Source: Bacteroidota bacterium
GTDB taxonomy: Bacteria > Bacteroidota > Bacteroidia > Bacteroidales > JAGONC01
Assembly (NCBI GenBank): GCA_026391695.1
Contig: JAPLDP010000020.1
Coordinates: forward strand, 1-61,360
Direction: 5' to 3'
Length of the DNA: 61,360 nucleotides
This document shows positions 17,061 to 35,871 of this stretch, piece after piece; position 1 is the first letter of the stretch, and the number at the start of each line of letters is the position of its first letter. Made by a program: the position numbers and the translations under genes. The notes under the pieces are model-generated. The model saw only the letters and a list, made by a program, of their open reading frames with translations. It was not told the origin of the DNA and searched no databases.

Positions 17061-20000
17061 CGTTCAGTGGTTGTGATGGCATACATTTCGCCGGCTTCAT
17101 TCACCAGCGCTGTGGCTGTCAGCAATACTTCCACAAGCCGGCCGTCTTTAGTGATCCGTTGTGTGTGGAAAGGCTCAAGAACCTTAGCCCGGCCCAGTTG
17201 CTGAATAACAGCCAGCTCATTCTCACGGTAGCTCTCCGGGATCCGGTCACGGATATTCATCGTCAATGCCTCGGCTTCACTCCATCCATACATACTTGTG
17301 GCCGCCGGATTCCAGGCCAAGATGCGACCGTTCAAATCCTGCACCGTAATGGCATCATGCGCGTCGCGTACCACCACAGCCAGGCGGCGCATGCTCTCCG
17401 ATTCCAGCAGCAATTCCCGGGCCTTTTTTATCTCCGTATTGTCAGCAAAGGTGATCACTGCACCCTCGATCACGTTGTCAAGGGTGCGGTAGGGCAGAAT
17501 GCGCATCATGTACCACATACCCGCCAATGTCTGCACTTCCAACTCTTTAGGAATCAGGCTTTTCAGCACATCCTGAACGTCCGCCCCCAAACGGTCATAG
17601 CCCACAAGGTTCGAAACAATGTGGGTTACAGGACGCCCTACATCGGTCAGGATCAGATTGATGATCGGCGTGACGACAGGAGTGAAACGTAGTATGCGAA
17701 GTTGATGGTCGACAAAGATAGTTCCGATGCCCGTGCCGGCCAGCAGGTTGTTCATATCGTTGTTGGCCCGCGACAAATCACTCACTTTGGTTTGCAGTTC
17801 AGTGTTTACCGTGGCCAGTTCCTCGTTTACCGATTGGAGTTCTTCCTTGGAAGTTTCCAATTCCTCGTTGGTGGATTGCAACTCCTCGTTGACGGACTGC
17901 ATCTCCTCATTGGAGGATTTGAGTTCTTCGTTGGAAGTCTCCAGTTCCTCGTTGGTGGTTTGGAGGTACTCCTCTTTGGCGCGCAGTTCCTGCTTCAACG
18001 CTTTAATGCGGGCGTCGGAATCCGTGGGATTCCCGATCATTCCGTCAACCGTTTCCATGGTAGCGGTCTTCGCGAACCGTTCCGGGTCCGCTGCCGGTAT
18101 ATCCTCGAAAACGACCAAAAACAAGGGTGGTGCGACACCGGACTGTGCCATGCCCGGCAGGACCGCGTCAGTACCCGCTGCCACCGGCTGTATCGTCAGA
18201 TTTACGGTGGTGAAGTTGCCATTGGTTTTTACCCGCAGCCCCTGGCATAGTACCGGCTTTCTGCCTGCGACAGCTTTCCGCAAGGCCGTGGTCATTTCAC
18301 GCCGCAACCCTTCACGGGCCATTTTCAGGATATTGTTAATTCCGGCCTCGCCCGGTGCCGGTTCCAGGTACGTCCCGGTGCGGCCATGGAGATAGAAAAT
18401 GTCGCCGCGTGCGTTGACGAGGGCGCCGACAGGGGCATATTCTTGCAGCAGCGCCTGTTCGACCAGTTCGCGCAGGGGAAACTTGCTCTCGCCGGGTGCC
18501 TTCCCAGTGGCCCGTGGAACAATAACTTCTTCTGTCAACGGCGGGAGAAACCTGCCCATGGCCGCGTGCAGTGCGCCGTGAACATCCTCTTTGCGATGAT
18601 ACAGCTTCCATTTGCGATCCATCATAGCATAAAATTCCGTAAACTGGCCTACAGTCTCGGAGGTGCCCAGGAAGAGAAAACCGCCTGGATTCAGTGCATA
18701 GTGGAACAGGGGAATGAGCTTCTTATGCAGTTCCCCGTCCATATAGATCAGGAGGTTGCGGCAACTGATCAAATCGAGTTTGGAAAAGGGCGGGTCTTTG
18801 ACCAGGTCCTGTTCGGAGAAGACCAGCATGTCGCGGATACTTTTATGGATGCAGAAGGCGCCGCCGTCAGACTCCTGGGTAAAAAAATGCGCCAGCCGTT
18901 CCGGCGAGATATCGGCGGCGATGTTTTCCGTATAGACACCGGCGCGGGCCGTGTCAAGAGCCTGCTTGTCAATGTCGGTGGCAAAGACCTGCACCTTGAA
19001 ACTCTGCTTCAGCGCCTCTATGTGCTCCTGTAGCAGGATTGCAATGGAATAGGCTTCCTCGCCCGTAGAACAGCCGGGCACCCACACACGCACAAATGCA
19101 CCCGAGTGTTTACCGGCAAAAAGACGCGGGATGACCTGCTTCTCGAGCGAGGCAAACGCCTCCAAATCACGGAAAAAACTGGTTACACCTATCAAAAGGT
19201 CACGAAAGAGCGCCTCCACTTCAGAAGGATTTTGCTGCAGATAAAGCACATACTTGTCAATATTTTCGATCTGGTTTACAGCCATACGCCTCTCGATGCG
19301 GCGGATGATGGTGTTTGGTTTGTAATGCGAAAAGTCGTGGCCGGTTTGGGCGCGCAGCAGGATGAAAGTCTTCTTCAAGGCGTTCTCGGCCTTGAGGACC
19401 GGTACGGTCATATACCGGGGTATCTTGCCGAATGCATGGGCCCCGTATGCAATGAGCTGGGCAGGCATCTCTGCCGGCGGCAGGATAAAGTCCACCAGAC
19501 CGGTGGCTATAGCGCTGCGTGGCATGCCGTCGAATTCCGTGGATTCGGGATTCTGTGCCATGACCATGCCACCCTCGCCCTTAACTGCCCGCACGCCCAA
19601 GGTACCATCGCTACCGGTACCAGAGAGGACGATGCAGATAGCCCGCTCACGTTGGTCCTGCGCCAGGGAGCGAAAGAAAAAGTCAATAGGCAGGCGCTGG
19701 CCGCGGGGTGCGGAGGGTTCCAGCAACTGCAGCGCGCCATTCAGAAAGGCCATGTCGTGGTTGGGCGGGATAATATAGGCGCAGTTGGGGCGCACCACCG
19801 TACCGTCCTCGACCTCGAAGACCTGCATCCGCGTATAGCGCTTGACCAGGTCGGTGAGGATGCTTTTGTGATCCGGGGCCAGATGTTGCACCAGGACAAA
19901 AGCCATACCTGGATCTGAGTCGGCCGGCAAAGCAGAAAAAAACGCCTCAAAAGCTGCCAATCCCCCGGCCGAGGCGCCGATGCCCACGATAGGAAAACCC

Positions 20001-20131
20001 GCATTCGTTGGCATATCCGCCTCTGCATCCAAAGCATGCTGAGCAGGGATAGATTTTGGCTCCTGATTATGCAGCATTGTCTCTGCCGGGTATTTCAATG
20101 GTCTAGTACCGGTTTTTTTTGTTTTGGTCAT
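17045..20131 (-). CDS. CheB-CheR-PAS fusion protein, lacking a kinase domain
   Basis: 1028 residues. CheB methylesterase (about 47-235) has the catalytic Ser in GIGASAGG, His in VQHLAPDH and Asp in SGTGSDG. CheR methyltransferase (about 255-500) has GVTSFFRD and WVPGCSTGEEAYS. A long NEEL/NEEM coiled coil follows (about 690-745), then two PAS-like domains. Fusions of this type commonly continue into a DITERK linker and a histidine kinase. Here the sequence stops after ITTTER, where the heptad repeat begins, so it is probably truncated. The SD (GGAGGA) is good. There is no chemoreceptor nearby, so a signalling rather than chemotaxis role is likely. Confidence 0.88.
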   Translation of the reverse strand: MTKTKKTGTRPLKYPAETMLHNQEPKSIPAQHALDAEADMPTNAGFPIVGIGASAGGLAAFEAFFSALPADSDPGMAFVLVQHLAPDHKSILTDLVKRYTRMQVFEVEDGTVVRPNCAYIIPPNHDMAFLNGALQLLEPSAPRGQRLPIDFFFRSLAQDQRERAICIVLSGTGSDGTLGVRAVKGEGGMVMAQNPESTEFDGMPRSAIATGLVDFILPPAEMPAQLIAYGAHAFGKIPRYMTVPVLKAENALKKTFILLRAQTGHDFSHYKPNTIIRRIERRMAVNQIENIDKYVLYLQQNPSEVEALFRDLLIGVTSFFRDLEAFASLEKQVIPRLFAGKHSGAFVRVWVPGCSTGEEAYSIAILLQEHIEALKQSFKVQVFATDIDKQALDTARAGVYTENIAADISPERLAHFFTQESDGGAFCIHKSIRDMLVFSEQDLVKDPPFSKLDLISCRNLLIYMDGELHKKLIPLFHYALNPGGFLFLGTSETVGQFTEFYAMMDRKWKLYHRKEDVHGALHAAMGRFLPPLTEEVIVPRATGKAPGESKFPLRELVEQALLQEYAPVGALVNARGDIFYLHGRTGTYLEPAPGEAGINNILKMAREGLRREMTTALRKAVAGRKPVLCQGLRVKTNGNFTTVNLTIQPVAAGTDAVLPGMAQSGVAPPLFLVVFEDIPAADPERFAKTATMETVDGMIGNPTDSDARIKALKQELRAKEEYLQTTNEELETSNEELKSSNEEMQSVNEELQSTNEELETSKEELQSVNEELATVNTELQTKVSDLSRANNDMNNLLAGTGIGTIFVDHQLRILRFTPVVTPIINLILTDVGRPVTHIVSNLVGYDRLGADVQDVLKSLIPKELEVQTLAGMWYMMRILPYRTLDNVIEGAVITFADNTEIKKARELLLESESMRRLAVVVRDAHDAITVQDLNGRILAWNPAATSMYGWSEAEALTMNIRDRIPESYRENELAVIQQLGRAKVLEPFHTQRITKDGRLVEVLLTATALVNEAGEMYAITTTERAVDS

Positions 20132-22822: not shown

Positions 22823-22932
22823 GGGGCATCATTCACCTCCTATAACTTGAATAATTCATAAAAAATAGTTACATCAAATCTCCTCATTGCTTTTTATTTT
22901 CACGAATCGTAATCTCAAGCAGGGCATGACGC
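22823..22932. repeat. duplicated segment, copy 1 (end of 253-aa gene)
   Basis: About 85% identical to 29403-29517. It contains the last 16-18 codons of the gene at 22884, its stop, and about 55 bp downstream with a strong SD (AGGAGG) and ATGATG, the start of a lost next gene. Confidence 0.75.
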
Positions 22933-23645
22933 TTTTTGGCGTCCTGAATCAGGGAATCAGCGTTATCCTGGCCGATCGCAAAACAGGTCTTGATGGTTTC
23001 GCGGATTTGCATACCCTCCTGCAGGAGTTCTTTGGGCATCAAGCGCTCAAATTGTTCACGATATTTCCCTGTTAGCAAATCATCAATAGAGGCCCCTTTC
23101 AGCAATTGTCCCTTGCGGTTAATCCAGCCCATGTCAAGTAATTGGGTAATAAAAGACGGCACTTGTTTGCTTTTTAGAAAAGTCTGAAAATAATTCATCA
23201 CTTTGAGGGTGAACCGGCGGCGGATTTCCTTTACAATCAGCTTGACAATCAATTTATCAAGGTCATCGCTCAGTTTTTGATACTGGATTAAATCAATCTT
23301 CCCCTGTTGCGCCCGTTCAAGAACTTCGCTGGGAACAATGTGAATTGAAATTTCCATCATCTTTTGCCCTTCATCACTCAGCGCGTATTGAATATCCATG
23401 CTCAAGCCCTTCATCTCACGGATCAGTTTCCGCCTTTCTTCCGGTGAACAATCCGCCGATAGCCGCTCACCGTGCTTTTCCATGTCCAAAATCGACTTCA
23501 CCATGCCGGGAGCCAATTGCGGGGAAAAAAGATTTGCAACGCGATAAAGAGCAAGTAGTTTTTCCGTGGAAACTTTTTCCGCGTCAAGGTATAGCGGTGA
23601 AAACAGGATAGGGTTGGCGCGTAACAATGAAGGTTTCTGAAGCAT
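22884..23645 (-). CDS. unknown protein, last gene of CheD/kinase operon
   Basis: 253 residues, soluble and mostly helical, rich in Leu, Lys and Glu. I recognise no family. A basic, hydrophobic centre (about 130-160, LIVKLIVKEIRRRFTLKVM) and a helical C terminus are visible. It follows the 211-residue gene by 11 bp. Its 3' end recurs as a remnant at 29403-29517, downstream of the paralogue of that neighbour. The two genes therefore probably form a unit that was once duplicated. Confidence 0.6.
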   Translation of the reverse strand: MLQKPSLLRANPILFSPLYLDAEKVSTEKLLALYRVANLFSPQLAPGMVKSILDMEKHGERLSADCSPEERRKLIREMKGLSMDIQYALSDEGQKMMEISIHIVPSEVLERAQQGKIDLIQYQKLSDDLDKLIVKLIVKEIRRRFTLKVMNYFQTFLKSKQVPSFITQLLDMGWINRKGQLLKGASIDDLLTGKYREQFERLMPKELLQEGMQIRETIKTCFAIGQDNADSLIQDAKKRHALLEITIRENKKQ

Positions 23646-23656: not shown

Positions 23657-24292
23657 TTAGGCGTTATAAATTGCTCCAATACTGCGGAATGGAAGGCGAT
23701 AAATAACATAAGAAACCAAAAAATCCTTTTCAAGCATTTTATCCAAACGGTGCATAACGCCCATAAAAACAATGGGCAATTCTCCTTTTTGAAGTGTGCT
23801 TGTAATGCGATTTAAGATGAATTCATCCCTCAATGTAAGTAGTTCCCTGCTTTTAGCCTGGTATTCTGCAATCGTCTCCTTCCGATCCTTATCAGAATTT
23901 TTCATCAGCAGTTTATTAAGCAGATCGTATTCCCGTATTAATAAATCTATGTTTTCCGTGCCCTCAAGTTTCGCCCTCTTCTGTATTAAATCTAAAATTA
24001 ACAAGAAATTAGGACTGCCACTCTCGGCAAGTCGCGTAACTATTTCCAATTCATTACCGCACACCGGCACACCATCCTGATAAATGCGTGTCTGATTCCA
24101 GGGTAAGTTTAGTCCTCCTATTTTGGCAGCAATTCCCTCCCACATTTCATCAACTGCCGACAGCTCCTTATCGATTTTTCCTCTTTTTATATCATTTTTT
24201 TCATTTCCATGCAGGATTGAAGCTGTGCGTCCTGAATCTTCCCGTGCATGCAGAATAGGCACATAAATAAGTCTTCTGAGATCTTTCATCAT
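23657..24292 (-). CDS. unknown conserved protein, paralogue of 29532 gene
   Basis: 211 residues. It shares with the 29532 product an N-terminal LIYVPI-H motif, a central IYQDG motif, a GSxN segment, an EYDxL segment and a C-terminal RDxFIxxRI plus GxxHxxxxxLxKD block. The invariant His and Asp positions and alternating hydrophobic strands suggest a folded, possibly catalytic alpha/beta domain, but no known family is recognised. It has an SD (GGAG) before ATGATG. It sits between the receiver and the 253-residue gene. Confidence 0.65.
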   Translation of the reverse strand: MMKDLRRLIYVPILHAREDSGRTASILHGNEKNDIKRGKIDKELSAVDEMWEGIAAKIGGLNLPWNQTRIYQDGVPVCGNELEIVTRLAESGSPNFLLILDLIQKRAKLEGTENIDLLIREYDLLNKLLMKNSDKDRKETIAEYQAKSRELLTLRDEFILNRITSTLQKGELPIVFMGVMHRLDKMLEKDFLVSYVIYRLPFRSIGAIYNA

Positions 24293-24306: not shown

Positions 24307-24684
24307 TTAAAGTTCAAGCGCCTTGCTGATTACGCTTACCAAATCTTCATTTTCAAAAGGCTTGCTTAAGTATTCGCTGACATTAAGGTCGGCCGCGTCC
24401 CTGATGGTATCAGGACATCCATATCCTGTCAGGATGACCACACGGACTTTGTCATCGTTTTTACGGATATTCCGCAAAGTCTCAATGCCATCCATTTCAG
24501 GCATGCGCAGGTCAAGTAGTATTAAATCCGGATTCTTCTGCTCATTAAGCAGAATGCCGTCGGAACCGTTGGAAGCACAGAAGACCTGATATCTTTCTTC
24601 TTCCAGCACGTCTTTCATCAGATCCAACAGTTCCGGTTCATCATCAATCATGAGTATTTTCCAATTCGCAAATTCTTTTTTCAT
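24307..24684 (-). CDS. single-domain CheY-like response regulator
   Basis: 125 residues, one receiver domain. The acidic pocket (Asp14/Asp15 in IDDEPE), phospho-acceptor Asp58 (LLDLRMPEMDG), Thr86 and Lys108 are all present. It has no output domain, so it acts by protein contact or in a relay. It lies 3 bp downstream of the kinase at 24688, its probable partner, and has an SD GGAGGAA. Confidence 0.93.
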   Translation of the reverse strand: MKKEFANWKILMIDDEPELLDLMKDVLEEERYQVFCASNGSDGILLNEQKNPDLILLDLRMPEMDGIETLRNIRKNDDKVRVVILTGYGCPDTIRDAADLNVSEYLSKPFENEDLVSVISKALEL

Positions 24685-24687
24685 ATT

Positions 24688-27600
24688 TTATTCCTCCAAT
24701 TTGTTAATAGTCTGATTTGTTTTCTCCTCTTTCAATTTATACGGCAACAGAATCGTAAATTTTGCGCCTTTCCCCTCGCCTTCGCTTTCAGCCGACATTT
24801 TGCCTCCGTGTGTTTCAATAATGCCAAGGCTGGTGGCAAGGCCTAGTCCGGTACCTTCGTCTTCTTTCCATCCGGAAATGAATGGCTGAAATAATTTTGT
24901 CATCTGTTCTTTGCTTATACCGATGCCAGTGTCATGAATTTCGATGCGTAGTTGGATTTCATTTTCCTTTTCAACAGTGATTGTCAGGTTGCCTTTTTCG
25001 CGCATAGCCTGCCGTGCATTGCGGATAAGATTAACAAAGACGGAGAGCAGAGCGACCTTGTTGCCGGTAATTTCAGTGTTGGTTGGCAAATTAAAATTCA
25101 ACGCCACCTCAATAGCGCTCATGTCATATTGATAATTTACATTATCAACTGCCTCCCGGATTAAATCGGGCAGATTAACGGCATCTTCTTTCTTACCGAT
25201 GGTTCTGCTATAGCTAAGCAGATTACTTAAAATGGTTTTGCATCGTCTGGCGCTCTGCAATACTGTTTCAAGCTGACCTTTATACGGCGACGGCTGTTCA
25301 TCAATCCGGCGAAGCATGAGTTGGGTTCTGCCGATAATGATCGCGAGGGGATTATTAATTTCATGAGCTACATCTGCCACGAGCCGCCCCATTACCGCCA
25401 GTTTTTCAGAGGTCAGCAATTTTCCCTGCATTTCTTTCTGAATTGAAATATCCACTATTATGGTACCCATATGCCTGAGGTTTCCCTCGACATCGCGGAT
25501 AGAGAATATTGTTTGAGCAACAGGAATGCTTGTGCCATCAATGCGTTTCAGTGTATGTTCACCATCCCATACTCCGTCCCTGATGGCGGTGGGGATCCAT
25601 TCATCAGTTACGTGTTTCAAGTTTGTTTGCTCAATAAAATCAGTGATGTTTTTGTCCAATATCTCATCAGGTTTAGTAGCCCCGAGCATTTTTATTCCGC
25701 CCGGATTTATATAGATGAGCTTTCCATTCATGTCAGCAAGCGCTACAAAACCATTATACGTTTCAATGATGGCTAATTGATCGAGGATTTTTCCCTCCGC
25801 TTCTCTTTCTTTAGTCAAATCGCGGAAGATAAGCACAACTCCGGTTACATTGAAATTCTGGTCAAATATCGGCGAAGCGCTATCGCCAATTGGGTGTTCG
25901 GTGCCATCACGGGCAATCAACAGGGTATGATTCGCCATTCCCACGACACTGCCTTCATTCAAGACACGAACTACAGGGTTATCAACCTTGCAGCGGGTCT
26001 CCTCATTGACAATGCAAAGCACATCTTCAAGTAGTTTGCCGTGCGCTTCCGACTCGCTCCACCCGGTCAGTTTCTCTGCAACCGGATTCATCATCAATAC
26101 GCAACCGTTGAGATTCAGTGATATAACTGCATCGCCAATGCTATAAAGCGTGGTTCTCATCTCCGACTCACTTAGGGCAAGCATATCCTGTATCCGCTTA
26201 CGTTCGGTGATGTCGGTGAAAAAACCCACATTGCACTTATGTCCTTCTATGACCACTGATATACCGCTGATGTTAGCGTAAAACAAGGTGCCGTCTTTAC
26301 GCAGGCACGGAAGGTCGGGCGCCAACGTCTTTTCGCCACGCGCTTGGGCCTCGAACTCGGCCAGCACGTGCTCCAACGACTCTTTTGGATGAATGTCCGC
26401 CACGCCCATCCCAATTAATTCTTCCTCAGTGTATCCAAACATCCGGCATATAGCCGGGTTGGCATAGCGGAATTGCTTCATTTGCAAGTCGGCCACGAGT
26501 ATTCCCTCTGCGGCGCCTGTGAACAGCGCCTTATACCTGGCTTCTGTTTCTCGCAGCGCATCTTCCGCCTGCTTGCGCTCGGTTATATCGATTGTATAAC
26601 CAGCAAGCAAATTTTTACCTTCATGAAAAATCGGGGATTTGATAGATGTATAATTACGACCATTTAAATTCTCTTCCAATTTAAGTATCTTACCAGAAGA
26701 AACTACTGCCCAGTCATCGGCTGTAATTTTTGCAGCAAATTCAGCGGGGAACAATTCATCCATAGTCTTGCCAACCATTTCGGAACCAAGAACACCAGTT
26801 AAGTCCACAAAATTTTCGCTAGCCATAATTACTCTGCTTTCATTAGGGGTCACTTCTTTAATGTAGGTATAAATTGGTGAATGCTTTATAAACGTTGAAA
26901 GTAACTTCTCGCTCTCCCGTAGTGCTTCTTCTGCCTGTTTGCGTTCGACAACCCTCCCCAATCTTTCGGCGATCGCATTGATCAGATTTCTCTCTTCCCT
27001 TAAGAACGGCCCTTCGTCCCTGATGGGTCGCTCTTCGAGGTAGCACAGCTCAATCATGCCGACAGGCTGTCCATCCACCTTAAGGTCGGCGGACTGCCGC
27101 CAGTCAGTTTTACGGAAATTTCCTGTTTGATATTGTCGCCCTTTAAAAATAATGCGGATGCAGGCGATTTCAGGATGGGCCCATGCATTCGGCATAACAT
27201 CAGCGCTGCCCTGTAATATCTTCTCCAGGCTGTCATCTTTCTCAATCAAGTCAGCGATGACGTAGAGGCAGTTCAATTCTTTGACACGTTCCCGCAATAC
27301 CTCTTCAGCCAGTTTGCGCCCTGTGATATCTTCAAAGCTTTCTATTCCACCAATTATATTATCATTTATATCTTTTAGGATATCTACATTTTTAGAAATA
27401 AAAATTCTTCTTCCTGATTTATGTATTATGGAACATTCTTTTGCATTGATAGGTTTTTGTGTTAGTGAATCGAAAAGCCCACATTTTGAACGGCAGGGTT
27501 CTTCAGCAAAAGCAGCGCATGATTTCCCGATCATTTCTTCCTGCGAAAAGCCTGTAATTTGTGTAGCCTTAATATTCCAGCTTGTAATCCGTTTTTCGTT

Positions 27601-27903
27601 ATCAACAGTGAATATAGCGCTTGGGGTTACTTTATATATTAATTCAGCAAATTCTTTTGATTCTTTCAATGCCTCCCCTTTTTTATCCATATCTTCCATA
27701 ATGTTCAGATAGGCATTCCTGGCCATCTCTAATTCTTCTTTGCTCTTCTGCAAATCCTCGATGATGTTCAGGCTCGCCTGCTGAGCCTCCTCCAAATCCT
27801 TTACCATTCTACGGACAGATTCGTCAGACCCGGCTGCCTGCCCCGGTTTAATCGGGGGTTGGGCAGGGATTATAGAGTTTCTATTCAATGACTCATTATT
27901 CAT
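24688..27903 (-). CDS. soluble multi-PAS/GAF histidine kinase
   Basis: 1071 residues from ATG 27903, which overlaps the cheD stop by 8 bp. An upstream in-frame ATG at 27960 would add 19 residues but lies deep inside cheD. Order: coiled coil (about 30-85), Cys-containing PAS (CAAFAEEPCRSKC), GAF-like domain (about 210-330), four PAS domains, HisKA (VADVAHEINNPLAII) and HATPase (NARQAM, DTGIGI, GTGLGLATS). There are no membrane helices, so it senses a cytoplasmic signal. The HisKA is of the NtrB-like HEINNPL type, unlike the kinases at 12950 and 20667. Partner: the receiver 3 bp downstream. Confidence 0.9.
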   Translation of the reverse strand: MNNESLNRNSIIPAQPPIKPGQAAGSDESVRRMVKDLEEAQQASLNIIEDLQKSKEELEMARNAYLNIMEDMDKKGEALKESKEFAELIYKVTPSAIFTVDNEKRITSWNIKATQITGFSQEEMIGKSCAAFAEEPCRSKCGLFDSLTQKPINAKECSIIHKSGRRIFISKNVDILKDINDNIIGGIESFEDITGRKLAEEVLRERVKELNCLYVIADLIEKDDSLEKILQGSADVMPNAWAHPEIACIRIIFKGRQYQTGNFRKTDWRQSADLKVDGQPVGMIELCYLEERPIRDEGPFLREERNLINAIAERLGRVVERKQAEEALRESEKLLSTFIKHSPIYTYIKEVTPNESRVIMASENFVDLTGVLGSEMVGKTMDELFPAEFAAKITADDWAVVSSGKILKLEENLNGRNYTSIKSPIFHEGKNLLAGYTIDITERKQAEDALRETEARYKALFTGAAEGILVADLQMKQFRYANPAICRMFGYTEEELIGMGVADIHPKESLEHVLAEFEAQARGEKTLAPDLPCLRKDGTLFYANISGISVVIEGHKCNVGFFTDITERKRIQDMLALSESEMRTTLYSIGDAVISLNLNGCVLMMNPVAEKLTGWSESEAHGKLLEDVLCIVNEETRCKVDNPVVRVLNEGSVVGMANHTLLIARDGTEHPIGDSASPIFDQNFNVTGVVLIFRDLTKEREAEGKILDQLAIIETYNGFVALADMNGKLIYINPGGIKMLGATKPDEILDKNITDFIEQTNLKHVTDEWIPTAIRDGVWDGEHTLKRIDGTSIPVAQTIFSIRDVEGNLRHMGTIIVDISIQKEMQGKLLTSEKLAVMGRLVADVAHEINNPLAIIIGRTQLMLRRIDEQPSPYKGQLETVLQSARRCKTILSNLLSYSRTIGKKEDAVNLPDLIREAVDNVNYQYDMSAIEVALNFNLPTNTEITGNKVALLSVFVNLIRNARQAMREKGNLTITVEKENEIQLRIEIHDTGIGISKEQMTKLFQPFISGWKEDEGTGLGLATSLGIIETHGGKMSAESEGEGKGAKFTILLPYKLKEEKTNQTINKLEE

Positions 27904-28378
27904 ATTGCAACAGCCTTTCTTCTTCATTTCCTTCGATATAAAATATACATCCTCTTTCAAGATTGAGAGAAACAGATCTCCTCTGGGTGCCCCCTAAAAC
28001 GCTAGCCCTTATTCTGATGCCTTTTTCTCCCAAAAGGTTAACCACCGACTTGATGTTGTCTTCACAAACAGTATCATCATTCCTTTGGAGCACATTTCCT
28101 CCCCCAACCAAGCATACCTCAAGATCATTCTTATTCACTCCCAGGCAAGCCATCTGGTCTATCATCGCATCTATGGCATCAGCCGCGTATCTTGTTCTGT
28201 GGGGATAGTCTTCTTTTGGTGACCTTCCCGGGAGCATAACGTGTACTATTGCACCTACCTTTTTCCCTGAATCATAGGCGGTAATGGCAATGCACGAACC
28301 GATCGCGTTCGCTCTCAAGACTGCATTTTCTCTGCCCGCCTTAACCTGCCCTGTTTCTACATCAATTACCTGATTCAT
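27896..28378 (-). CDS. cheD: CheD-type receptor glutamine deamidase
   Basis: 160 residues. CheD deamidates glutamines on chemoreceptors. The family motif GSCIAI (Cys29) and HVMLPG (His46) keep the normal 17-residue Cys-His spacing, and GGGNVL and GGTQRRSV follow. The Thr usually six residues before the Cys (third member of the triad in Thermotoga) appears to be Ala23, so activity may be altered. No methyl-accepting receptor is nearby. The upstream HAMP-coiled-coil protein is the only receptor-like candidate. It starts 6 bp after that gene and overlaps the kinase. Confidence 0.88.
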   Translation of the reverse strand: MNQVIDVETGQVKAGRENAVLRANAIGSCIAITAYDSGKKVGAIVHVMLPGRSPKEDYPHRTRYAADAIDAMIDQMACLGVNKNDLEVCLVGGGNVLQRNDDTVCEDNIKSVVNLLGEKGIRIRASVLGGTQRRSVSLNLERGCIFYIEGNEEERLLQYE

Positions 28379-28384
28379 CCCTTC

Positions 28385-28906
28385 TTATATTTCACCCTTT
28401 ATCTTTTTTGGTGCCTCATACTTCCAAGGCTGTCCTGATTTTTCAAGGAGAGAGTTTACCTCTCCCTTTAGTGCGATCATTTGCAGTTCCCTGCCCACCA
28501 TAAGTCTATTAGCCCGCTCCAAATCACCTACTTTACTCATTAATGCATCCTGTGAAGCCCGCAATCCCTGTTCTTTCGCCATTAACTGTTGGTTAGCAGC
28601 CCTTAGTTGTTGTTCTTTTGCTGTTAACTGTTGGTTAGCGGCAACCAGGTGTTGTTCGCTTGCTCTTAACTGCTGGTTGGCGGCTTTCAGTTGTTGTTCG
28701 CTTGCTCTTAGCTGCTGGTTTGCAGCTTGTATTTCCTCAGTCTTTTCCTTAATATCATCAATCATCATATTAAAACCTATAGCCAGTGAATCGATGTCAT
28801 CATTTTTGTCTGAAAGTTCAAGCTGAACAGAATAATCTCCTCTTGCTACTTTTATAACTGTCTCAATGATTTCATTTATACGGTCTTTTTCTAGTGTTTT
28901 ATCCAT
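28385..28906 (-). CDS. HAMP-like coiled-coil protein without membrane anchor
   Basis: 173 residues. A HAMP-like segment (about 8-55, IIETVIKVARGDYSVQLELSD... DSLAIGFNMM) is followed by a coiled coil built from four 14-residue repeats (about 60-120, consensus AANQQLRASEQQL) and an ALKGEVNSLLEKSG tail. There is no transmembrane helix. It resembles the signalling neck of a receptor or kinase made as a separate protein, and could be a target for the CheD encoded 6 bp downstream. Function is inferred only from context. Confidence 0.75.
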   Translation of the reverse strand: MDKTLEKDRINEIIETVIKVARGDYSVQLELSDKNDDIDSLAIGFNMMIDDIKEKTEEIQAANQQLRASEQQLKAANQQLRASEQHLVAANQQLTAKEQQLRAANQQLMAKEQGLRASQDALMSKVGDLERANRLMVGRELQMIALKGEVNSLLEKSGQPWKYEAPKKIKGEI

Positions 28907-28955
28907 ACATTTATCCTTTTTGAATTTTATCAGTTCTGATTATTGGTATTATTCC

Positions 28956-29360
28956 TTATTCCTTCAGCCAGGCCAGTGCTTCTTCCTTCGTCTTGAAAAA
29001 ACGCATATCTTTATTTTTAGAAATCCCCATAACAAATGACGCAATCACTCTTGCAACCGGATGCAATCCAAATAAAGCAATCTTTGCTGTTTTTTCGTGT
29101 TCACTCAATTCTTTCCATATCTTTCTTGCTTCCGGTGATTGTTTTCCTGCTTTGTTAACGTCTACAAGCAAACTTACTTTTCCTTCAACCATATTTATAA
29201 ATTTTAAATAAACCTTTTTACACGCAATTACTTTTTCCTCATCACATTCGCCAACATCGGTAAAATAAAGCATATCATCCTCACCAAGATACCATCTGCT
29301 TTCCCCTACCCAGAATTCTCTTTCGCTAATTTGTTTAACTTCTACTTGTTTTTGTTCCAT
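28956..29360 (-). CDS. STAS/SpoIIAA-like protein
   Basis: 134 residues. The C-terminal two thirds match the SpoIIAA-like/SEC14-type STAS fold of sensory operons (LLVDVNKAGKQSPEARKIW, IALFGLHPVARVIASF, and a final FFKTKEEALAWLKE). The N-terminal strands (WYLGEDDMLYFTDVG) replace the usual first strand. It probably binds a partner and may be switched by phosphorylation, though no canonical Ser of anti-anti-sigma factors is obvious. It has a perfect SD AGGAGG seven bases before the ATG. First gene of the CheD-kinase operon. Confidence 0.7.
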   Translation of the reverse strand: MEQKQVEVKQISEREFWVGESRWYLGEDDMLYFTDVGECDEEKVIACKKVYLKFINMVEGKVSLLVDVNKAGKQSPEARKIWKELSEHEKTAKIALFGLHPVARVIASFVMGISKNKDMRFFKTKEEALAWLKE

Positions 29361-29531: not shown

Positions 29532-30215
29532 TCATTTTTTAATCATATATTGAGCAAGTTGTTCAAGTTGTAATGTTTTAATTTTAGAATCAGATTGCAT
29601 TGCTTTTTGATATTTTCGGATTTTTGCAATTTCCTTCAATTCGATCACAGTAATATCTTTGGGCAGTCTTTTCATGATATTGTGATAAGCCCCGATAAAA
29701 AGAATTCCGGTTTCGTTCTGGCCCAACGTTTCGGCTATCCTGCCGGCAATAAATTTATCCCTCCTGATTAAAAATATTGGTTTCAAAACTTTATACCTGA
29801 GCAGTAGAAAGAGTTTCTTAATATTGGTTCTTGATTTTAAGATAGATTGAAGTCCATCGTATTCATCTTTCACCATTTTGAAATCTTCAGTCTTGACAAG
29901 TATTGCTCCCCGATCGATAAGTTTTGAAACTATTTCAGAATTTTTGCTCCCCGATTTGATGCCTGCGTTAATAATTTTCATTGCCATTTCCCCGTCAACA
30001 AACATTCCATCCTGATATATTTTTATCCCCTTAATATATATATCAATGTTTTCAAAATAGGATTCAATTGCATCCCAATAGCCATTTACAGTATCGGTAT
30101 GCTTTTGCCATTTACTTTCTCCGAGTCCGGAAACACTTTTGCTCTTAAGTTCTTTCCCCAGAGAGCCCATGTCGGCGCTTGAATGAATGATGGGAACATA
30201 TATTAGGGTCCTCAT
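29532..30215 (-). CDS. unknown conserved protein, paralogue of 23657 gene
   Basis: 227 residues from the ATG at 30215, which overlaps the upstream stop as ATGA; a start at 30227 would add four residues. It starts MRTLIYVPIIHSSADMGSL and shares the IYQDG, GSKN, TED and FIGAYHN-KRLPKD blocks with the 211-residue gene. It has an extra C-terminal helix (about 195-227) and a basic insert around 140-155. Function is unknown; the duplicate arrangement implies a role in this sensory locus. Confidence 0.7.
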   Translation of the reverse strand: MRTLIYVPIIHSSADMGSLGKELKSKSVSGLGESKWQKHTDTVNGYWDAIESYFENIDIYIKGIKIYQDGMFVDGEMAMKIINAGIKSGSKNSEIVSKLIDRGAILVKTEDFKMVKDEYDGLQSILKSRTNIKKLFLLLRYKVLKPIFLIRRDKFIAGRIAETLGQNETGILFIGAYHNIMKRLPKDITVIELKEIAKIRKYQKAMQSDSKIKTLQLEQLAQYMIKK

Positions 30216-30484
30216 TGTGAAAGGCATTTAGCTTTGATTATCAATTCTGCTGTTTTTTTATGCAAATGCGCAATCATGCGGCAATATTTGCAATCTTGTT
30301 TTTGATCATCGTACTGCGGACAATCAATAAGGCAAGCCACCTTATCCGATAATTCTTCGGCATATTTTGCCTTGATGCAAACAGATGCTCCATGATTGAT
30401 TTTTTGTTTTATTACATTCATGGCAGTAAAACTATCCTGATGGATTTTACACTGAATCGCTGAAGTATCATTTTGATTGTACAT
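30212..30484 (-). CDS. small Cys-containing hypothetical protein
   Basis: 90 residues with seven Cys, including a CKYC pair (about 72-75) and a CLIDCPQYDDQKQDC stretch, and one His-rich helix. The spacing suggests metal or redox binding, but no family is recognised. It is translationally coupled (ATGA) to the next gene and lies only 30 bp after gvpK, linking the gas-vesicle and sensory blocks. Confidence 0.6.
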   Translation of the reverse strand: MYNQNDTSAIQCKIHQDSFTAMNVIKQKINHGASVCIKAKYAEELSDKVACLIDCPQYDDQKQDCKYCRMIAHLHKKTAELIIKAKCLSQ

Positions 30485-30514: not shown

Positions 30515-30859
30515 TTACATTAAATCGCCCAATGGACCGAGATTGATGTTTAAATCCCTGTCGGTGAGGTTAAAGTGTTTTTTCAGTTCTTCCATTTTCA
30601 TCTCCAGCTTCATGAGGGTTTCTCCCAATCGTTCGATTTCAGCTTCCGTTAATGATCCGCCGTCGACTCTTCGCATGGCCTGCTTTTCAACCAGTTTCCG
30701 GATGAGTTCCACCAGGGTGAGAACCAGTTTTGCCAGCCCTGAATCTGCATTGTCGGGGCTGAGCTTTAGCCTGGATTCTTCGTTGCTTGTCAGTTTTCCA
30801 ATCTCCTCCGAAAGTTCCTCAAGCGAACCCGAAGTAAATAGTATCTTATCTTCACTCAT
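30515..30859 (-). CDS. gvpK: gas vesicle protein GvpK
   Basis: 114 residues. GvpK is a small helical accessory protein needed for vesicle assembly. The family core is present: GLAKLVLTLVELIRKLVEKQAMRRVDGGSLTEAEIERLGETLMKLEMKM, with an N-terminal acidic extension and a short C-terminal tail LNINLGPLGDLM. It lies 8 bp after a gvpF/L gene. Last recognisable gas-vesicle gene of the locus. Confidence 0.9.
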   Translation of the reverse strand: MSEDKILFTSGSLEELSEEIGKLTSNEESRLKLSPDNADSGLAKLVLTLVELIRKLVEKQAMRRVDGGSLTEAEIERLGETLMKLEMKMEELKKHFNLTDRDLNINLGPLGDLM

Positions 30860-30867
30860 GGCTCATT

Positions 30868-31623
30868 TTACTTTACCGTGAAATCCACAAAATTGTACGG
30901 CGGCCAGGGGCCGGTCAACACAAAGTTAAGCCCGCTATAGTGGTCTTGTAAATCTTCAACCGCCTGTATCAATTCACCTTTCTTATCCTTTTCAAGTAAA
31001 AAAACCGCATCGATTATGGTTGTTGCGGTTGCCATTTTTTTGAATTTATTGACCGCGTTCAATCGGGCAAGGTATTCCGTGATCTCTGCAATAACCGAAT
31101 CAACATAGGTCAACAGCAATTCCTCAAGCCTGTGCTCTTTAAGTTTTTTATTCACGTAATCCACGTACACTGAATTTTTGATTTCCGGGGCAGGTTGGGC
31201 GGGTGTTTTGGTATCGGCCTCTGATTTTGCCCTCAGTTCTGCCTTTAATTTTTCGGAATCGCAGAAAACCTTTAGTCCGAATTCAACCTTGTTTTCAACT
31301 TTCAGAAGGTTGTGTTGAATTTTATTATAGTTTCTTTCGAGCATTTTTTTAATCGCGTCGGTTGATTCCATAAGGGAACCATATTGCATGGGAAGAAGCG
31401 TAAATTGTTGCGCCAGGTTTTCGATCACCCCGGCATACTCAATGGCATTTGTTTTATCTGCAATTAAATCAGCTCTTTTGATATCGCTGACTACTGCTGA
31501 AATTTCATCAAAGGAAACACCGTATAAGGCCGCCCCAGTAATACCCTTCATATCAACCAACAGCGTATTTAACTTTTCATGATTACTTTTTACGGATAAT
31601 ATGGCATAAATCATCTTATCCAT
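30868..31623 (-). CDS. gas vesicle protein GvpF/GvpL, paralogue 5
   Basis: 251 residues. GvpF/L proteins bind GvpA and act in nucleation. Seen here: N-terminal AILSVKSNHEKL strand, VIENLAQQFTLLPMQYGSLM, VEFGLKVFCDSE and the C-terminal LNFVLTGPWPPYNFVDF signature. The N-terminal domain is more divergent than in the sister copies (no IYGI motif). Two bp separate it from the GvpA-family gene upstream. Confidence 0.85.
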   Translation of the reverse strand: MDKMIYAILSVKSNHEKLNTLLVDMKGITGAALYGVSFDEISAVVSDIKRADLIADKTNAIEYAGVIENLAQQFTLLPMQYGSLMESTDAIKKMLERNYNKIQHNLLKVENKVEFGLKVFCDSEKLKAELRAKSEADTKTPAQPAPEIKNSVYVDYVNKKLKEHRLEELLLTYVDSVIAEITEYLARLNAVNKFKKMATATTIIDAVFLLEKDKKGELIQAVEDLQDHYSGLNFVLTGPWPPYNFVDFTVK

Positions 31624-31625
31624 GT

Positions 31626-31829
31626 CTATACAATTACTGAATTTCCGGACCTCAATTGCTCCATGGTTTCAACCGAGCTCAGCATTAATTTCACGCCCAC
31701 ATATACCAGGTCGATATCTGCTACAGAAATTACAATATCCCCGGTTAGTATTACTCCTTTGTTCAATACCCTGTCGAGTAATTCAAGGATGGTAATATCC
31801 TTAGATCTGTCAACTACATTTTCATACAT
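31626..31829 (-). CDS. GvpA-family minor gas vesicle protein (GvpJ/S type)
   Basis: 67 residues. It has the GvpA fold core ITILELLDRVLNKGVILTGDIVISVADIDLVYVGVKLMLSSVE but differs from the main GvpA in charge and C terminus, as minor GvpJ, M or S proteins do. These are thought to help form vesicle tips or nucleate. Its ATG overlaps the stop of the upstream gvpF/L gene (TAATG). Confidence 0.85.
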   Translation of the reverse strand: MYENVVDRSKDITILELLDRVLNKGVILTGDIVISVADIDLVYVGVKLMLSSVETMEQLRSGNSVIV

Positions 31830-32626
31830 TACTGTTTTTCTTTAATGGAGATAAAACTAAATGGCGGCCAGGGGCCGGTTGTTTCAATAATAAAGCCGGA
31901 ATTCCCATCCTTTTTTCTCAGTGTGTCAACTGTACCATTAAAATCAGCCACTTTGTTTTTACTTACAAGAAAGGTGGCATTGAGGATCATGGTATCCACT
32001 CTTCCGGTAAATTCCTTCGGGAGCAGGTTATTGAGGCAAGTTGATTCGCTTAGATTTTTAAAATCATTATAATATTTCTGTCCGTAGATCTTACAAAGCC
32101 GGTCCATTTCATTTTCGATCAGGTCGGTTTTTTTTCTTTTCAGAAGAAAAGCTTTTCCGGGCGAACTTGCCATGATCTGCTTTTCCAGCGCAGCGGCTTC
32201 CTCGCTCAATTCATCAATTTGTTCGCTCAGCGCTTTACGGTCGCAATAAATTTTCACCGCCCATTCTTCCTTCCCTTCGATATTATGGAGATTCTCGGTC
32301 AATGAATCGGAATAATCCTCTATAAATTTTTTCAAACTATCTTCAGATTGATAGATGGTGCCAAATTTAAATGGGATCACCGCACTGTTTTCCATGATCT
32401 TGCTTATGACATTGATGTGATCTCTTACGCTTGGTTCTACCCATGAAATATCTGATAAGTTTTTTTTCAGATTTTCCTCCGAAAAATCGCTTTCTGAAAC
32501 ATATTTTATGGTTGCATAAAAACCCGTGGCCTTAAGGTATTTCAAATCCCCGAACCCGGCAGCCTGACCGGGTTGGGGTAAATTACCTGTAATACAATAC
32601 ACGTATATTAAATCCTTTTTCATCAC
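31829..32626 (-). CDS. gas vesicle protein GvpF/GvpL, paralogue 4
   Basis: 265 residues. It shows N-terminal LIYVYCITG, the AVIPFKFGTIY segment, EEWAVKIYCD, and C-terminal IETTGPWPPFSFI. It is one of five GvpF/L paralogues here. An extra Lys-rich helix (about 140-170) precedes the second domain. It overlaps the minor GvpA-like gene by one base. Confidence 0.87.
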   Translation of the reverse strand: MMKKDLIYVYCITGNLPQPGQAAGFGDLKYLKATGFYATIKYVSESDFSEENLKKNLSDISWVEPSVRDHINVISKIMENSAVIPFKFGTIYQSEDSLKKFIEDYSDSLTENLHNIEGKEEWAVKIYCDRKALSEQIDELSEEAAALEKQIMASSPGKAFLLKRKKTDLIENEMDRLCKIYGQKYYNDFKNLSESTCLNNLLPKEFTGRVDTMILNATFLVSKNKVADFNGTVDTLRKKDGNSGFIIETTGPWPPFSFISIKEKQ

Positions 32627-32649
32627 TTGATAATGGCGACAATCATAAA

Positions 32650-32922
32650 TTACTGATTATTATTTCCCGTTTCTTCAAAAGATGTAATTCTTTGAAATGA
32701 TGTAATTTCAAGGTTATCATCCAGGTGTACCGAATAATAAAGCCGTACCTGTTTTGGTGGTAAATTCATTGACTTGAGGAATGAATCATCTTCATAAACT
32801 TCTGCCACGGCTTCCCAGATTTCGTTCACCTTTTCGAGTTTTATGACCGTTACTTCATAGCTGTTGATGCTCTCTTTAAGGAACTCTAAAACAGCGTTTT
32901 TTACTTCAATTATTTTACTCAT
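32650..32922 (-). CDS. gvpO: gas vesicle protein GvpO
   Basis: 90 residues with the GvpO pattern: N-terminal helix, then VNEIWEAVAEVYEDD, a YYSVHLDDNLEITSFQRI strand pair and a short tail. In haloarchaea GvpO influences gvp expression; its bacterial role is unclear. It is shorter at the N terminus than haloarchaeal GvpO. It lies between gvpG and a gvpF/L gene. Confidence 0.8.
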   Translation of the reverse strand: MSKIIEVKNAVLEFLKESINSYEVTVIKLEKVNEIWEAVAEVYEDDSFLKSMNLPPKQVRLYYSVHLDDNLEITSFQRITSFEETGNNNQ

Positions 32923-32967
32923 AAATCAATCTCCATTAATTATTGTTTAAAACTATTTTAACCTACC

Positions 32968-33204
32968 TTACTTGTTTTGTTTTTCTTCTCTGATATTTTC
33001 CAGTAATTTCAACAATTCATCTTCTCTTTTATCGTATTCTTCTTCATCAATTTCATCCATTTCAAACTTCAACTGCAATGCCATCAACCTTTCTTTAATG
33101 GCGCCTTCATCCGACATTTCTTTCTCGATCACCTCATTGATTTTTTTTCCGATGAAAATAACTCCTTTTAAAGGCGCAAGCAATATATCATCGATCAGAA
33201 ACAT
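32968..33204 (-). CDS. gvpG: gas vesicle protein GvpG
   Basis: 78 residues, with the typical hydrophobic start (LIDDILLAPLKGVIFIGKKI) followed by an acidic coiled-coil helix with EEYDKREDELLKLLENI. Length and arrangement match GvpG, an accessory assembly factor usually encoded beside gvpF. It starts one base after the upstream gvpF/L stop. Confidence 0.9.
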   Translation of the reverse strand: MFLIDDILLAPLKGVIFIGKKINEVIEKEMSDEGAIKERLMALQLKFEMDEIDEEEYDKREDELLKLLENIREEKQNK

Positions 33205-33205
33205 G

Positions 33206-33988
33206 TTAAACTCCTATCGTTTTGATGACCAGATTAACAAAATTGTAGGGGGGCAACGTCCCTACGTATTTGAACGTCATAAAGCGTCCATATTTTTTAT
33301 CCAAATCATCCACAGCCTTGTCAAACCTAGGTTCGGCGCTGTTTTTAATAAGGAATGCGGCGTTGAGTATCATCAGTTCTCCGTAGTTATTATTTATCTT
33401 CACATCGTCCGCAAGTGGATTTAAAACATCAAGAATAATATTTTTATAATTTTCCGTCTCCATTTTAAGCGCTTCGGCTACCATTTCGCCGATTTTCATG
33501 CGCTGGTAGTGGGTTTTATCCGCAGGCAGGTTCATCAGTTTTCCCCGCAGCGTCCTGATATCTTCGTATTTTTCCACGATGCTTTCGTACATCGGTGCTT
33601 CATGGGCAAGTACTTTGAGCCCCAATTCTTTTTTGCCCTCCATCTTACTAAGCAGGTCGTCGAATTTTTTATAATCCTTTTCGAGGATTCTCAGAATCCC
33701 GGCGTCGTCGTTATGTCCGGAGATGGTCGAAAAGCGAACCGGAAGAACTGTAAATTGTTTCATCACCTCTTCGAGCACGGTTTGATGAGCGATCATGTTT
33801 ACCCTTCGTGCTTCATATTGAATGATGGGCGAATTACTAACTATGGCGCTGATATCTTTAAAATTGATCCCAAAAACCCTGTCGGCGCGTTTTCCGATTC
33901 CTATCGGGCCATAGTCTATCGGGCCGGTATGCCTGATGATCCCATAAATGTATTTGCCTTCTTTCGGTATTTCCAGTTCGTTGCTCAT
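33206..33988 (-). CDS. gas vesicle protein GvpF/GvpL, paralogue 3
   Basis: 260 residues. It starts with KYIYGIIRHTG, and has QFTVLPVRFSTIS, ELGLKVLAHEAPM and the end FKYVGTLPPYNFVNL. This is a full-length two-domain copy with the ferredoxin-like N domain and helical C domain pattern. One base precedes gvpG. Confidence 0.9.
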   Translation of the reverse strand: MSNELEIPKEGKYIYGIIRHTGPIDYGPIGIGKRADRVFGINFKDISAIVSNSPIIQYEARRVNMIAHQTVLEEVMKQFTVLPVRFSTISGHNDDAGILRILEKDYKKFDDLLSKMEGKKELGLKVLAHEAPMYESIVEKYEDIRTLRGKLMNLPADKTHYQRMKIGEMVAEALKMETENYKNIILDVLNPLADDVKINNNYGELMILNAAFLIKNSAEPRFDKAVDDLDKKYGRFMTFKYVGTLPPYNFVNLVIKTIGV

Positions 33989-34011
33989 AAATGCCTTTCA
34001 GTCTGTTAGTT

Positions 34012-34785
34012 TTATAATTCCCATTTTTCAGGAAAAATTTTCAGGTCGATAAAATTAAAGATCGGCAATGGGGCTGTATATACAAAGTCGCTCCGATCCT
34101 GGTATCTGGCGCCAATGTCGGCCATGATGTTATCGAATTCGACCTCCCTCGCGCTGTTCACCAGAAAGGCTGTATTCATAAACATGGCGTCGTTGCTTTT
34201 TTTATTGTGTTTAAACTCGAACACCGATTTCCGGAAAGCATCGATTATTTTTTCGGCTTCATCCTCTTTCTTCTGAATTAATGCATGTTCGACCAATTTT
34301 CCGGCTTCATCAATTTTCGCGTTTTTCTTTTCCTTATCATCAAGTTTCTCTATTTCAGCTCTGATTTTTTGCAGTTCAGCATGCTCCTTGTCGATCTCTT
34401 TGTAAATCATTCCCATATTTTTCCAGGTGCCCCTTACATTGAACTCCACTTTATTTTCGAACTGTTTGAGCAATTCCATAAATTCGCTGTATCGCCGGTT
34501 GAGCAGGTTTCTTATCTCATCGGGAGTTGCCGCTATGGTACCAAACCTGATGGGAAGTACGCTTCTGTATTCCTTCATCACTTCTTCAATCACTTTCTGA
34601 TGAGTAAGAATATTTTCGGGATTAACCACAAACCTGCTGAGCGGATGATCGCTCACCACCATACATAATCCATCGAAACCGATGGTGGTGACAAGATCGC
34701 CGCGTCCGCCTATTCCTATCGGTCCCAAATTGAAGTCGTAATTCGAGGCAATGATGCAGTAAATATATTTTCCGTCTCTCTGCAT
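34012..34785 (-). CDS. gas vesicle protein GvpF/GvpL, paralogue 2
   Basis: 257 residues. KYIYCIIASNYDF at the N terminus, EYRSVLPIRFGTIA, VEFNVRGTWKNM and C-terminal FVYTAPLPIFNFIDL. The final motif has lost the usual GPxPPY. Its start lies one base after the stop of the J-domain fusion gene, implying coupled translation. Confidence 0.88.
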   Translation of the reverse strand: MQRDGKYIYCIIASNYDFNLGPIGIGGRGDLVTTIGFDGLCMVVSDHPLSRFVVNPENILTHQKVIEEVMKEYRSVLPIRFGTIAATPDEIRNLLNRRYSEFMELLKQFENKVEFNVRGTWKNMGMIYKEIDKEHAELQKIRAEIEKLDDKEKKNAKIDEAGKLVEHALIQKKEDEAEKIIDAFRKSVFEFKHNKKSNDAMFMNTAFLVNSAREVEFDNIMADIGARYQDRSDFVYTAPLPIFNFIDLKIFPEKWEL

Positions 34786-34786
34786 G

Positions 34787-35827
34787 CTATTCCTTTATTT
34801 TTACCAAAATTAAATTTTCGATTACTTTTTCTTTAGCTAAAGAGATGTTTTCCTCTTTCGAGGATTGCTTTACTGCCGCTGAATAATCAAGCAGTGTGTG
34901 ATAGGCATTATTGATTCTGTTGAAGTTTTCTTTGTCACCATGGTCCAGACATGCATCGGGATGGAATTCTTTTGCTTTTTCCAGGTATGCCTTTTTAATT
35001 TCATCTTCCGAAACTTCTTCTTTCAGGCCAAGCTCGTTCTTAGCCTGCTCCACCAGTCCGGGATTTAACTCTTTCACTTCGATGGTATAAAAACTATAAC
35101 ACGGCAGCGGACCTACCAATTTGAAATTCAGTGCACCCTCATATTCTTTATCAAGTTGGTCAATTGACTTTTCAAATATTTCATTATTGTTTCTTTTTAG
35201 AAGAAATGCCGTATTGGTAACCATCTGGTCATTCATCACCTCATGTGTTTTTATATCGAAGCTGAATGGTGACAATGAACTCAGGATTTTCTTTTCAACT
35301 TCATTTTTCTTTTCATCCAGTTTATCTTTTACCAATATCCCCACTTTAATTTGTTCAACTTGTGTAAGGAGGTCCCCTTTTTTAAGCATCTCATCTTTCA
35401 TCGCTTTAATTTCGGGATGGTCAGCTATATCTTTAAGGATTCCGGAAAAATCATTCCAGGTTACCACCAAATCAATTTCTGTCAGGTTTTCAATTTTTTT
35501 CAGAGTGTCGATAATTAAGTCATAGCCGTTTTCAAGTATTTTGGAAACCTCTTTTTTAGAGGTCACAATTGTTCCGAGCCGCATGGGGATGATCATAGAA
35601 AATCCTTTCCCCATGAGATTTTCAATAGCTTCCTGATGATGAACAAGAAGGTGTGCCAGCGATTCCCTATCAAAATAATCCAGGTGTGTACTCTCCCCTT
35701 CTGAAACGACGGCAGAAATGTTCTGAAAAGATATGGGATAAATCCCTGAATTATCCAAGGATCGAAATTGATCAGCACCGTAAAAATTCGGAATGATCCC
35801 ATATATGTATATTCCTTTTGCTGGCAT
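34787..35827 (-). CDS. GvpF/GvpL fused to a C-terminal J domain
   Basis: 346 residues. Residues about 5-255 are a normal GvpF/L (IYIYGIIPNFYG, MIIPMRLGTIV, FKLVGPLPCYSFYTIEV). Residues about 265-325 form a J domain with the essential HPD tripeptide (KEFHPDACLDHG) and the FNRINNAYHTLLD helix. J domains recruit Hsp70 (DnaK). The fusion suggests that GvpA clients are handed to DnaK. The 44-bp spacer before its start is made only of octad repeats. Confidence 0.92.
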   Translation of the reverse strand: MPAKGIYIYGIIPNFYGADQFRSLDNSGIYPISFQNISAVVSEGESTHLDYFDRESLAHLLVHHQEAIENLMGKGFSMIIPMRLGTIVTSKKEVSKILENGYDLIIDTLKKIENLTEIDLVVTWNDFSGILKDIADHPEIKAMKDEMLKKGDLLTQVEQIKVGILVKDKLDEKKNEVEKKILSSLSPFSFDIKTHEVMNDQMVTNTAFLLKRNNNEIFEKSIDQLDKEYEGALNFKLVGPLPCYSFYTIEVKELNPGLVEQAKNELGLKEEVSEDEIKKAYLEKAKEFHPDACLDHGDKENFNRINNAYHTLLDYSAAVKQSSKEENISLAKEKVIENLILVKIKE

Positions 35828-35871
35828 GGTTGATTAATTTATGGGTTTATGGGTTGATAGGTTAATGGGTT
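35828..35871. repeat. 8-bp repeat spacer filling stop-to-start gap
   Basis: On the - strand the whole gap from the cdc48 stop codon to the next ATG is TATCAACC/CATAAACC/AATCAACC-type octads. Same family as at 38032-38212. Confidence 0.75.

Follow-up and report, generated by a model that had tools for sequence, protein, structure and literature searches.

CheD is an enzyme known for modifying chemoreceptors, and among the papers listed in full-text searches of the open-access literature (subscription papers being outside that scope) we found no bacterial CheD whose described client was anything but chemoreceptors or CheC. The window analyzed here, the whole stretch of 61,360 nucleotides from a contig of a Bacteroidota bacterium, carries on its minus strand five genes packed from position 29360 down to 24307, with gaps of 49, 6, −8, and 3 bp. 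In that order, they encode a SpoIIAA-like/DUF7793 protein, a soluble HAMP-coil protein, CheD, a soluble multi-PAS histidine kinase, and a lone receiver; a previous sequence-only reading had listed the same genes, positions, and gaps, and our analysis agrees with it. Like the chemotaxis CheD proteins of Thermotoga maritima and Bacillus subtilis, the window CheD belongs to the Pfam CheD family, has the CheD fold, and aligns with the Cys and His of the catalytic triad. It differs from them in falling into a separate clade, in having Ala as its third triad residue, in being encoded in a genome without an MCP or CheW domain, and in its proposed client, a soluble coil. Genome comparisons showed that a distinct CheD clade is kept together with soluble sensors that have a tandem glutamine coil in the signaling helix. 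On the strength of these comparisons, we consider it fairly probable that the locus is a receptor-independent CheD module and that the coil is the client, bound and deamidated by CheD. Neither the enzyme nor the chemistry is new; the CheD clade, the clients that we propose for it, and the lack of receptors appear to be new.

The window CheD clears the Pfam family cut-off (Table 1), and its model matched T. maritima CheD (2f9z_C) with a Z score of 22.1 and 2.2 Å over 154 residues, in a list of whole-structure matches that re-compares Foldseek's matches only. The deamidases NTAN1, CNF1, and BLF1 are of the same hydrolase fold class and share the deamidase Cys and His (PMC7022378, available excerpt), but they are far more distant from the window CheD (Z scores of 8 to 13) and have other substrates. 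Of 69 CheD sequences, 55 were placed in a tree (13 repeat genes or genomes and L009, which has an internal stop, were left out); 12 clade rows lay on one side of a branch that had support of 100/99 and was found in 100% of 200 bootstrap trees. A search of the phylum with the window CheD gave a match in 34 of 395 genomes, headed by the window's own genome and four genomes of one genus (E values of 1.8e-31 to 5.3e-31) and followed by matches at 1.5e-16 and weaker; clade CheD was present in 5 of the 395, namely the window genome (G000), G032, G064, G079, and G094. Within the same order, a profile search covering 364 genomes found a CheD match in 94, and nine were high scoring (E values of 1.6e-85 to 1.8e-34): the window genome, G411 (taken to be the lake relative, locus L040), G723, G606, G473, G625, G482, G495, and G449. 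Neighborhoods were taken from the best 20 matches of this search, the remainder having E values of 4.6e-20 or weaker. A scan of named genomes with two strict peptide patterns, which gave 12 loci and is no census (at least seven clade members found later lie outside those loci), detected a CheD with 83% identity in a lake Bacteroidetes metagenome genome (L040) and clade CheD in Chlorobium phaeovibrioides BrKhr17, Pelodictyon luteolum CIII, and Chlorobium sp. N1. No relative was found in viral contigs with six peptide patterns, and plasmids gave three weak matches of about 31% identity. Eleven ordinary CheD loci were read gene by gene (L007, L036 to L039, L044 to L046, and L048 to L050), and 10 of them had che or flagellar genes. 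At L046 (positions 9953 to 10480), CheD has Asn for the catalytic His and lies outside a recognizable che cluster; we counted it as ordinary CheD. In the Chlorobium locus L032 (G079, positions 7141 to 10548), the clade CheD gene is flanked by those of a GAF kinase and a receiver and follows genes that by eye are exosortase-like and PEP-CTERM-like.

The glutamine coil accompanies this clade. Among the 13 clade CheD genes, the coil is beside or fused to CheD in 7 and elsewhere in the genome in 4 (Chlorobium); it is not nearby in 1, and in another (G449) the locus is cut by the contig end, leaving its presence undecided. The gene adjacent to CheD encodes it in the window, L040, G606, G473, G625, and G495, and in G723, CheD, PAS, glutamine coil, and GAF are fused in one frame of 780 residues. 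All seven positive coils lie within 1.5 kb of CheD by coordinates. By comparison, none of 44 ordinary CheD loci (25 from the phylum search, 11 from the order search, and 8 from the named-genome scan) had a glutamine coil, the flanks at 36 of them extending about 1.5 kb or less; for 7 of 13 versus 0 of 44, the Fisher P value is 6e-6 with kinship ignored. Nor was a glutamine coil present at any of 29 loci with other PAS or tail sensors. The AANQQL codon pattern occurred in 70 of the 395 phylum genomes, and matches spaced at 42 or 84 bp occurred only in G000, G032, G064, G079, and G094. A protein search with the 62-residue coil, at E values of 1e-5 or better, returned 7 of the 395, the same five plus G230, whose match (35% identity) proved on reading to be a coil of the Glu type, in a protein that also has a CheR domain, and G216, whose match lies in a frame with four stops. 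A credible glutamine coil was present in 5 of the 395 genomes, exactly the five with clade CheD, and the chance of hitting the same five by luck is 1.3e-11, again ignoring kinship. The four Chlorobium genomes are relatives, so about two independent events are counted in the phylum set; by a hand count there are about 86 Chlorobium-family genomes, and only these four have clade CheD or the coil. The sequence-only reading had proposed that CheD may deamidate the coil and thereby set the gain of a cytoplasmic sensor. The pairing of CheD with the coil is strongly supported by the counts above, whereas deamidation and gain setting stay at the level of a proposal; it had also suggested looking for conserved linkage in other genomes, and such linkage exists in the clade genomes with the coil next to or fused with CheD.

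In the window, the HAMP-coil protein carries (AANQQLRASEQQL)n within a predicted helix of 121 residues, and its coil reads IQAANQQLRASEQQLKAANQQLRASEQHLVAANQQLTAKEQQLRAANQQLMAKEQGLRASQD. AlphaFold, given an alignment of two sequences, predicted a short helix (residues 2 to 21) and one long helix (residues 37 to 157) with a mean pLDDT of 86. The protein has no membrane helix, the highest 19-residue Kyte-Doolittle mean being 0.52, which confirms what the sequence-only reading had said of it and rules out a missed membrane receptor. The Gln-rich repeats described in that reading are also real: AANQQL occurs four times with a spacing of 42 bp. Pairwise, the four units differ by 3 to 6 synonymous and 2 to 4 amino acid changes in 14 codons; the first Gln pair is kept in four of four units and the second in two of four. 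We rejected a chance repeat, because the coil is rare and the units have diverged at synonymous sites yet keep the first Gln pair. The coil segment had one match in its own genome at an E value of ≤1e-5, and it recurs with CheD in other genomes. In L040, the HAMP protein is 90% identical to the window protein outside a PAS domain inserted between the coil and the tail, and the kinase keeps about 340 N-terminal residues but has a different C-terminal part; the pairing of CheD and coil thus survives rearrangement of its surroundings. Most other clade genomes have the coil within a PAS/GAF kinase or sensor. The Chlorobium coil, (AANQQLQASEQQLM)n, whose repeats contain neither Lys nor Arg, is placed after PAS and before GAF in soluble kinases. 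The C-terminal tail (GRE..M.ELK..INELL) closes sensor proteins that have no kinase domain after it. A tail match was found in 28 of the 395 phylum genomes; the tail is C-terminal at 11 loci (L053 to L056, L061, L063, L065, L074, L075, L080, and L081) and internal in many Chlorobium-family kinases.

These observations bear on another explanation, namely, that the coil is a common spacer helix, that CheD has some other client, and that the pairing is an inherited gene cassette. Close kinship between the window and L040 (83% CheD identity) and among the Chlorobium genomes would suit this explanation, as would the 70 genomes with AANQQL and the clade CheD of G482, which has no coil nearby. However, strong glutamine coils are rare (five credible ones in 395 genomes), the coil tracks clade CheD through fusion, split, different kinases, and the unlinked state, and the window units differ at synonymous sites while all four retain the first Gln pair. 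We regard a mere spacer as quite improbable.

The coil also resembles the sites at which chemoreceptors are edited. Chemoreceptor modification sites follow the pattern [ASTG][ASTG]xx[EQ][EQ]xx[ASTG][ASTG] (PMC6829392, available excerpt), and the coil repeats a Gln-Gln-x-x-Ala-Ala/Ser site akin to them. With a relaxed pattern that omits the first residue, each coil gave 3 to 10 matches, and the same proteins had no relaxed sites outside their coils except for one in G094a. Among other frames of at least 200 amino acids, 3 of 426 (a set that includes redundant frames) had three or more relaxed sites in phase: one at L048, which lies in a che cluster and resembles a chemoreceptor, and two hybrids that contain CheR, including the hybrid of the window. 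The coil pairs have Glu variants, QE in G625 and EE in G495, which fit deamidation of Gln pairs. Compared with methyl-accepting chemotaxis proteins, then, the helical coil has [EQ][EQ]xx[ASTG][ASTG] sites in heptad phase and a HAMP domain before the helix; it differs in that the window genome has no MCPsignal domain, the coil protein has no membrane helix, and the first residue of the consensus is mostly missing.

Similar spacing was seen in a protein of another type. The CheB-CheR-PAS hybrid of the window (Table 1) has a Glu-Glu coil (TNEELETSN...) whose spacing equals that of the glutamine coil. Such hybrids share with the coil proteins a long coil beside PAS and in-phase sites of equal spacing, with CheR in the same protein; they differ in being of the Glu rather than the Gln type and in having a methyltransferase/esterase instead of CheD. 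The Glu-Glu coils of CheR hybrids are possibly self-modified linkers, and our reading of CheD and its coil suggests why these hybrids have in-phase Glu-Glu coils. A CheR protein of G230 (L121) has five relaxed sites in phase. At L149 (G482), where CheD occupies positions 9867 to 10358, Glu-type linkers occur in a membrane sensor kinase encoded close by.

CheA proteins carry a CheW domain. The sequence-only reading had noted no chemoreceptor, CheA, or CheW at the locus, and this extends to the whole genome (3.63 Mb, 97% complete, 95 contigs, one CheD), in which we found no MCPsignal domain and no CheW domain, CheA not being sought by a family of its own. Two CheR domains are present, and the one in the window belongs to the CheB-CheR-PAS hybrid. 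Four family relatives searched gave no CheD match. MCPsignal was detected in 2 of 12 genomes searched, which were both of the ordinary-CheD genomes in the set, and in none of six clade genomes (the window genome, four of the Chlorobium type, and the lake relative, which has no stated completeness); among clade genomes, the CheW search covered the window genome alone. We consider a decayed chemotaxis cluster unlikely, given that neither MCPsignal nor CheW was found anywhere in the genome and that this CheD falls in a clade of its own.

We hypothesize that CheD binds the glutamine coil of soluble sensors and converts Gln of the repeated Gln-Gln pairs to Glu, which would alter the charge and packing of the helix and hence the set point of the kinase that contains the helix or partners with it. 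For the window, we propose the stand-alone HAMP-coil protein as the client; it would regulate the soluble PAS kinase and its receiver, with the SpoIIAA-like protein as a presumed partner. The catalytic Cys and His are present in 13 of 13 clade CheDs (Cys29 and His46 in the window). The third triad position is Ala23 in the window CheD, Ser in the 12 others, and Thr21 in T. maritima. In NTAN1, loss of Cys or His abolishes activity and a Ser-to-Ala change at the third position costs about 5-fold; that position varies in the wider family, and CNF1 uses a backbone carbonyl (PMC7022378, in the excerpt available). The kept Cys and His (13 of 13) and hydroxyl residue (12 of 13) argue for selection on catalysis.

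The main rival is a role in binding only: CheD would act on the coil mainly by reversible binding that stabilizes one signaling state, with the receiver or another partner competing. In B. subtilis, CheD binding appears to matter more than deamidase activity, and a mutant CheD that binds weakly, although its deamidase activity is normal, is as defective in proline taxis as a null mutant (PMC3513319, available excerpt). The Ala at the third triad position of the window CheD and the closeness of a receiver gene to CheD both in the window and at Chlorobium L032 would likewise suit binding, but the conservation of catalytic residues across the clade just described speaks against it, and we judge this alternative unlikely.

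Several observations weigh against the reading of the locus as a receptor-independent module in which CheD deamidates the coil. The window CheD could have reduced activity because its third triad residue is Ala. The full ten-residue consensus of chemoreceptor sites has only 0 to 2 matches per coil, 1 of them in the window, the first residue being mostly missing. The Chlorobium coil kinase lies 39 to 84 kb from CheD or on another contig, no glutamine coil was present within the 17.7 kb read around the clade CheD of G482, and single AANQQL motifs occur in 65 genomes without clade CheD. Independent events are few, the four Chlorobium genomes being related to one another and the window to L040. 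The MCPsignal search covered 6 of the 13 clade genomes, with G723, G606, G473, G625, G482, G495, and G449 outside it. Finally, the four Chlorobium genomes gave no CheR match, so that any Glu produced in them would stay unmethylated, making the edit a one-way change.

If deamidation of the coil by CheD is correct, covalent sensory adaptation would extend to ordinary two-component signaling in receptor-free bacteria, with a proposed client that is specified down to heptads. The comparisons suggest that ordinary sensors, too, may be tuned by chemotaxis-type chemical editing in bacteria where searches detected no chemotaxis receptors. A broader and more tentative idea, which we think possible but somewhat doubtful, is covalent adaptation without chemoreceptors in two forms, Gln-Gln linkers being deamidated by a dedicated CheD and Glu-Glu linkers being methylated and demethylated by fused CheR and CheB, so that two-component sensors would gain a molecular memory.

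Table 1. Features of the CheD locus and its surroundings (window coordinates)
Feature	Position	Strand	Remarks
Gas-vesicle cluster: GvpK, five GvpF/L, Cdc48-like AAA, ArsA-like, Hsp20, AAA, three GvpA	30515..45031	-	
X1, paralogue of X2	29532..30227	-	Upstream side, 171 bp from SpoIIAA-like gene
SpoIIAA-like/DUF7793 (STAS-type) protein, 134 aa	28956..29360	-	Pfam SpoIIAA-like 31.8 bits (cut-off 25), DUF7793 39.5 (26)
Soluble HAMP + coiled-coil protein, 173 aa, proposed CheD client	28385..28906	-	Pfam HAMP 29.2 bits (cut-off 25), residues 9-53
Gln-rich heptad coil, 62 residues	28547..28732	-	Seven in-phase Gln-x-Leu steps, four relaxed MCP-type sites
C-terminal tail of HAMP-coil protein, ...VGRELQMIALK...	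28388..28540	-	End common to other sensor proteins
CheD, separate clade	27896..28378	-	Pfam CheD 69.2 bits (cut-off 25); Cys29, His46, Ala23 (third triad position)
Soluble multi-PAS histidine kinase	24688..27903	-	Pfam PAS, HisKA, HATPase_c
Single-domain receiver, CheY-like	24307..24684	-	Pfam Response_reg 104.5 bits
X2	23657..24292	-	No Pfam match; extends gene run (gap of 14 bp after receiver gene)
Second protein without Pfam match	22884..23645	-	Extends gene run (gap of 11 bp)
CheB-CheR-PAS hybrid with Glu-Glu coil (four relaxed sites in phase)	17045..20131	-	Possible functional relative; module membership only a candidate

Beyond what the sequence-only reading had described, the gene run continues with two further genes, and immediately upstream, also on the minus strand, is a gas-vesicle cluster. 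The SpoIIAA-like protein has an L040 counterpart with 65% identity over 111 amino acids; L040 excepted, a homologue search of the remaining clade CheD loci did not recognize it. The histidine kinase start was taken as the ATG at 27903, a longer TTG frame beginning at 27960. X1 and X2, which are 31% identical over 190 amino acids and both lack a Pfam match, are paralogues that flank the CheD module on both sides, and no homologue of either was found in the other loci compared. X1 sits between the module and the gas-vesicle genes, and X2 sits at the far side of the module. Promoter-like and terminator-like sites were fewer at the locus than in shuffled sequence and are therefore uninformative on operon limits.

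Gas vesicles may be the output of the module in this organism, the only one in which the link was seen. A further explanation, compatible with the others, is that the CheD module is a control system for gas vesicles (buoyancy) here. The module lies directly downstream of the gvp genes on the same strand, flanked by X1 and X2, and GvpA was found in four of six clade genomes searched versus none of six others. Gas vesicles are not rare in Chlorobium. However, GvpA was not found in clade genomes G064 and G094, no gas-vesicle genes were recognized by eye at L145 to L151, near other clade CheDs, and the gas-vesicle contig of the lake relative stops short of the place expected for the module, so the neighborhood there speaks neither for nor against synteny. 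We consider control of gas vesicles rather unlikely. The gas-vesicle cluster, together with a sigma-54 regulator and a PAS kinase (window positions 35872 to 51468), is largely collinear with positions 1 to 13542 of L115 of the lake relative, and window positions 34787 to 35827 encode a GvpL/GvpF protein with a DnaJ domain on its C-terminal side.

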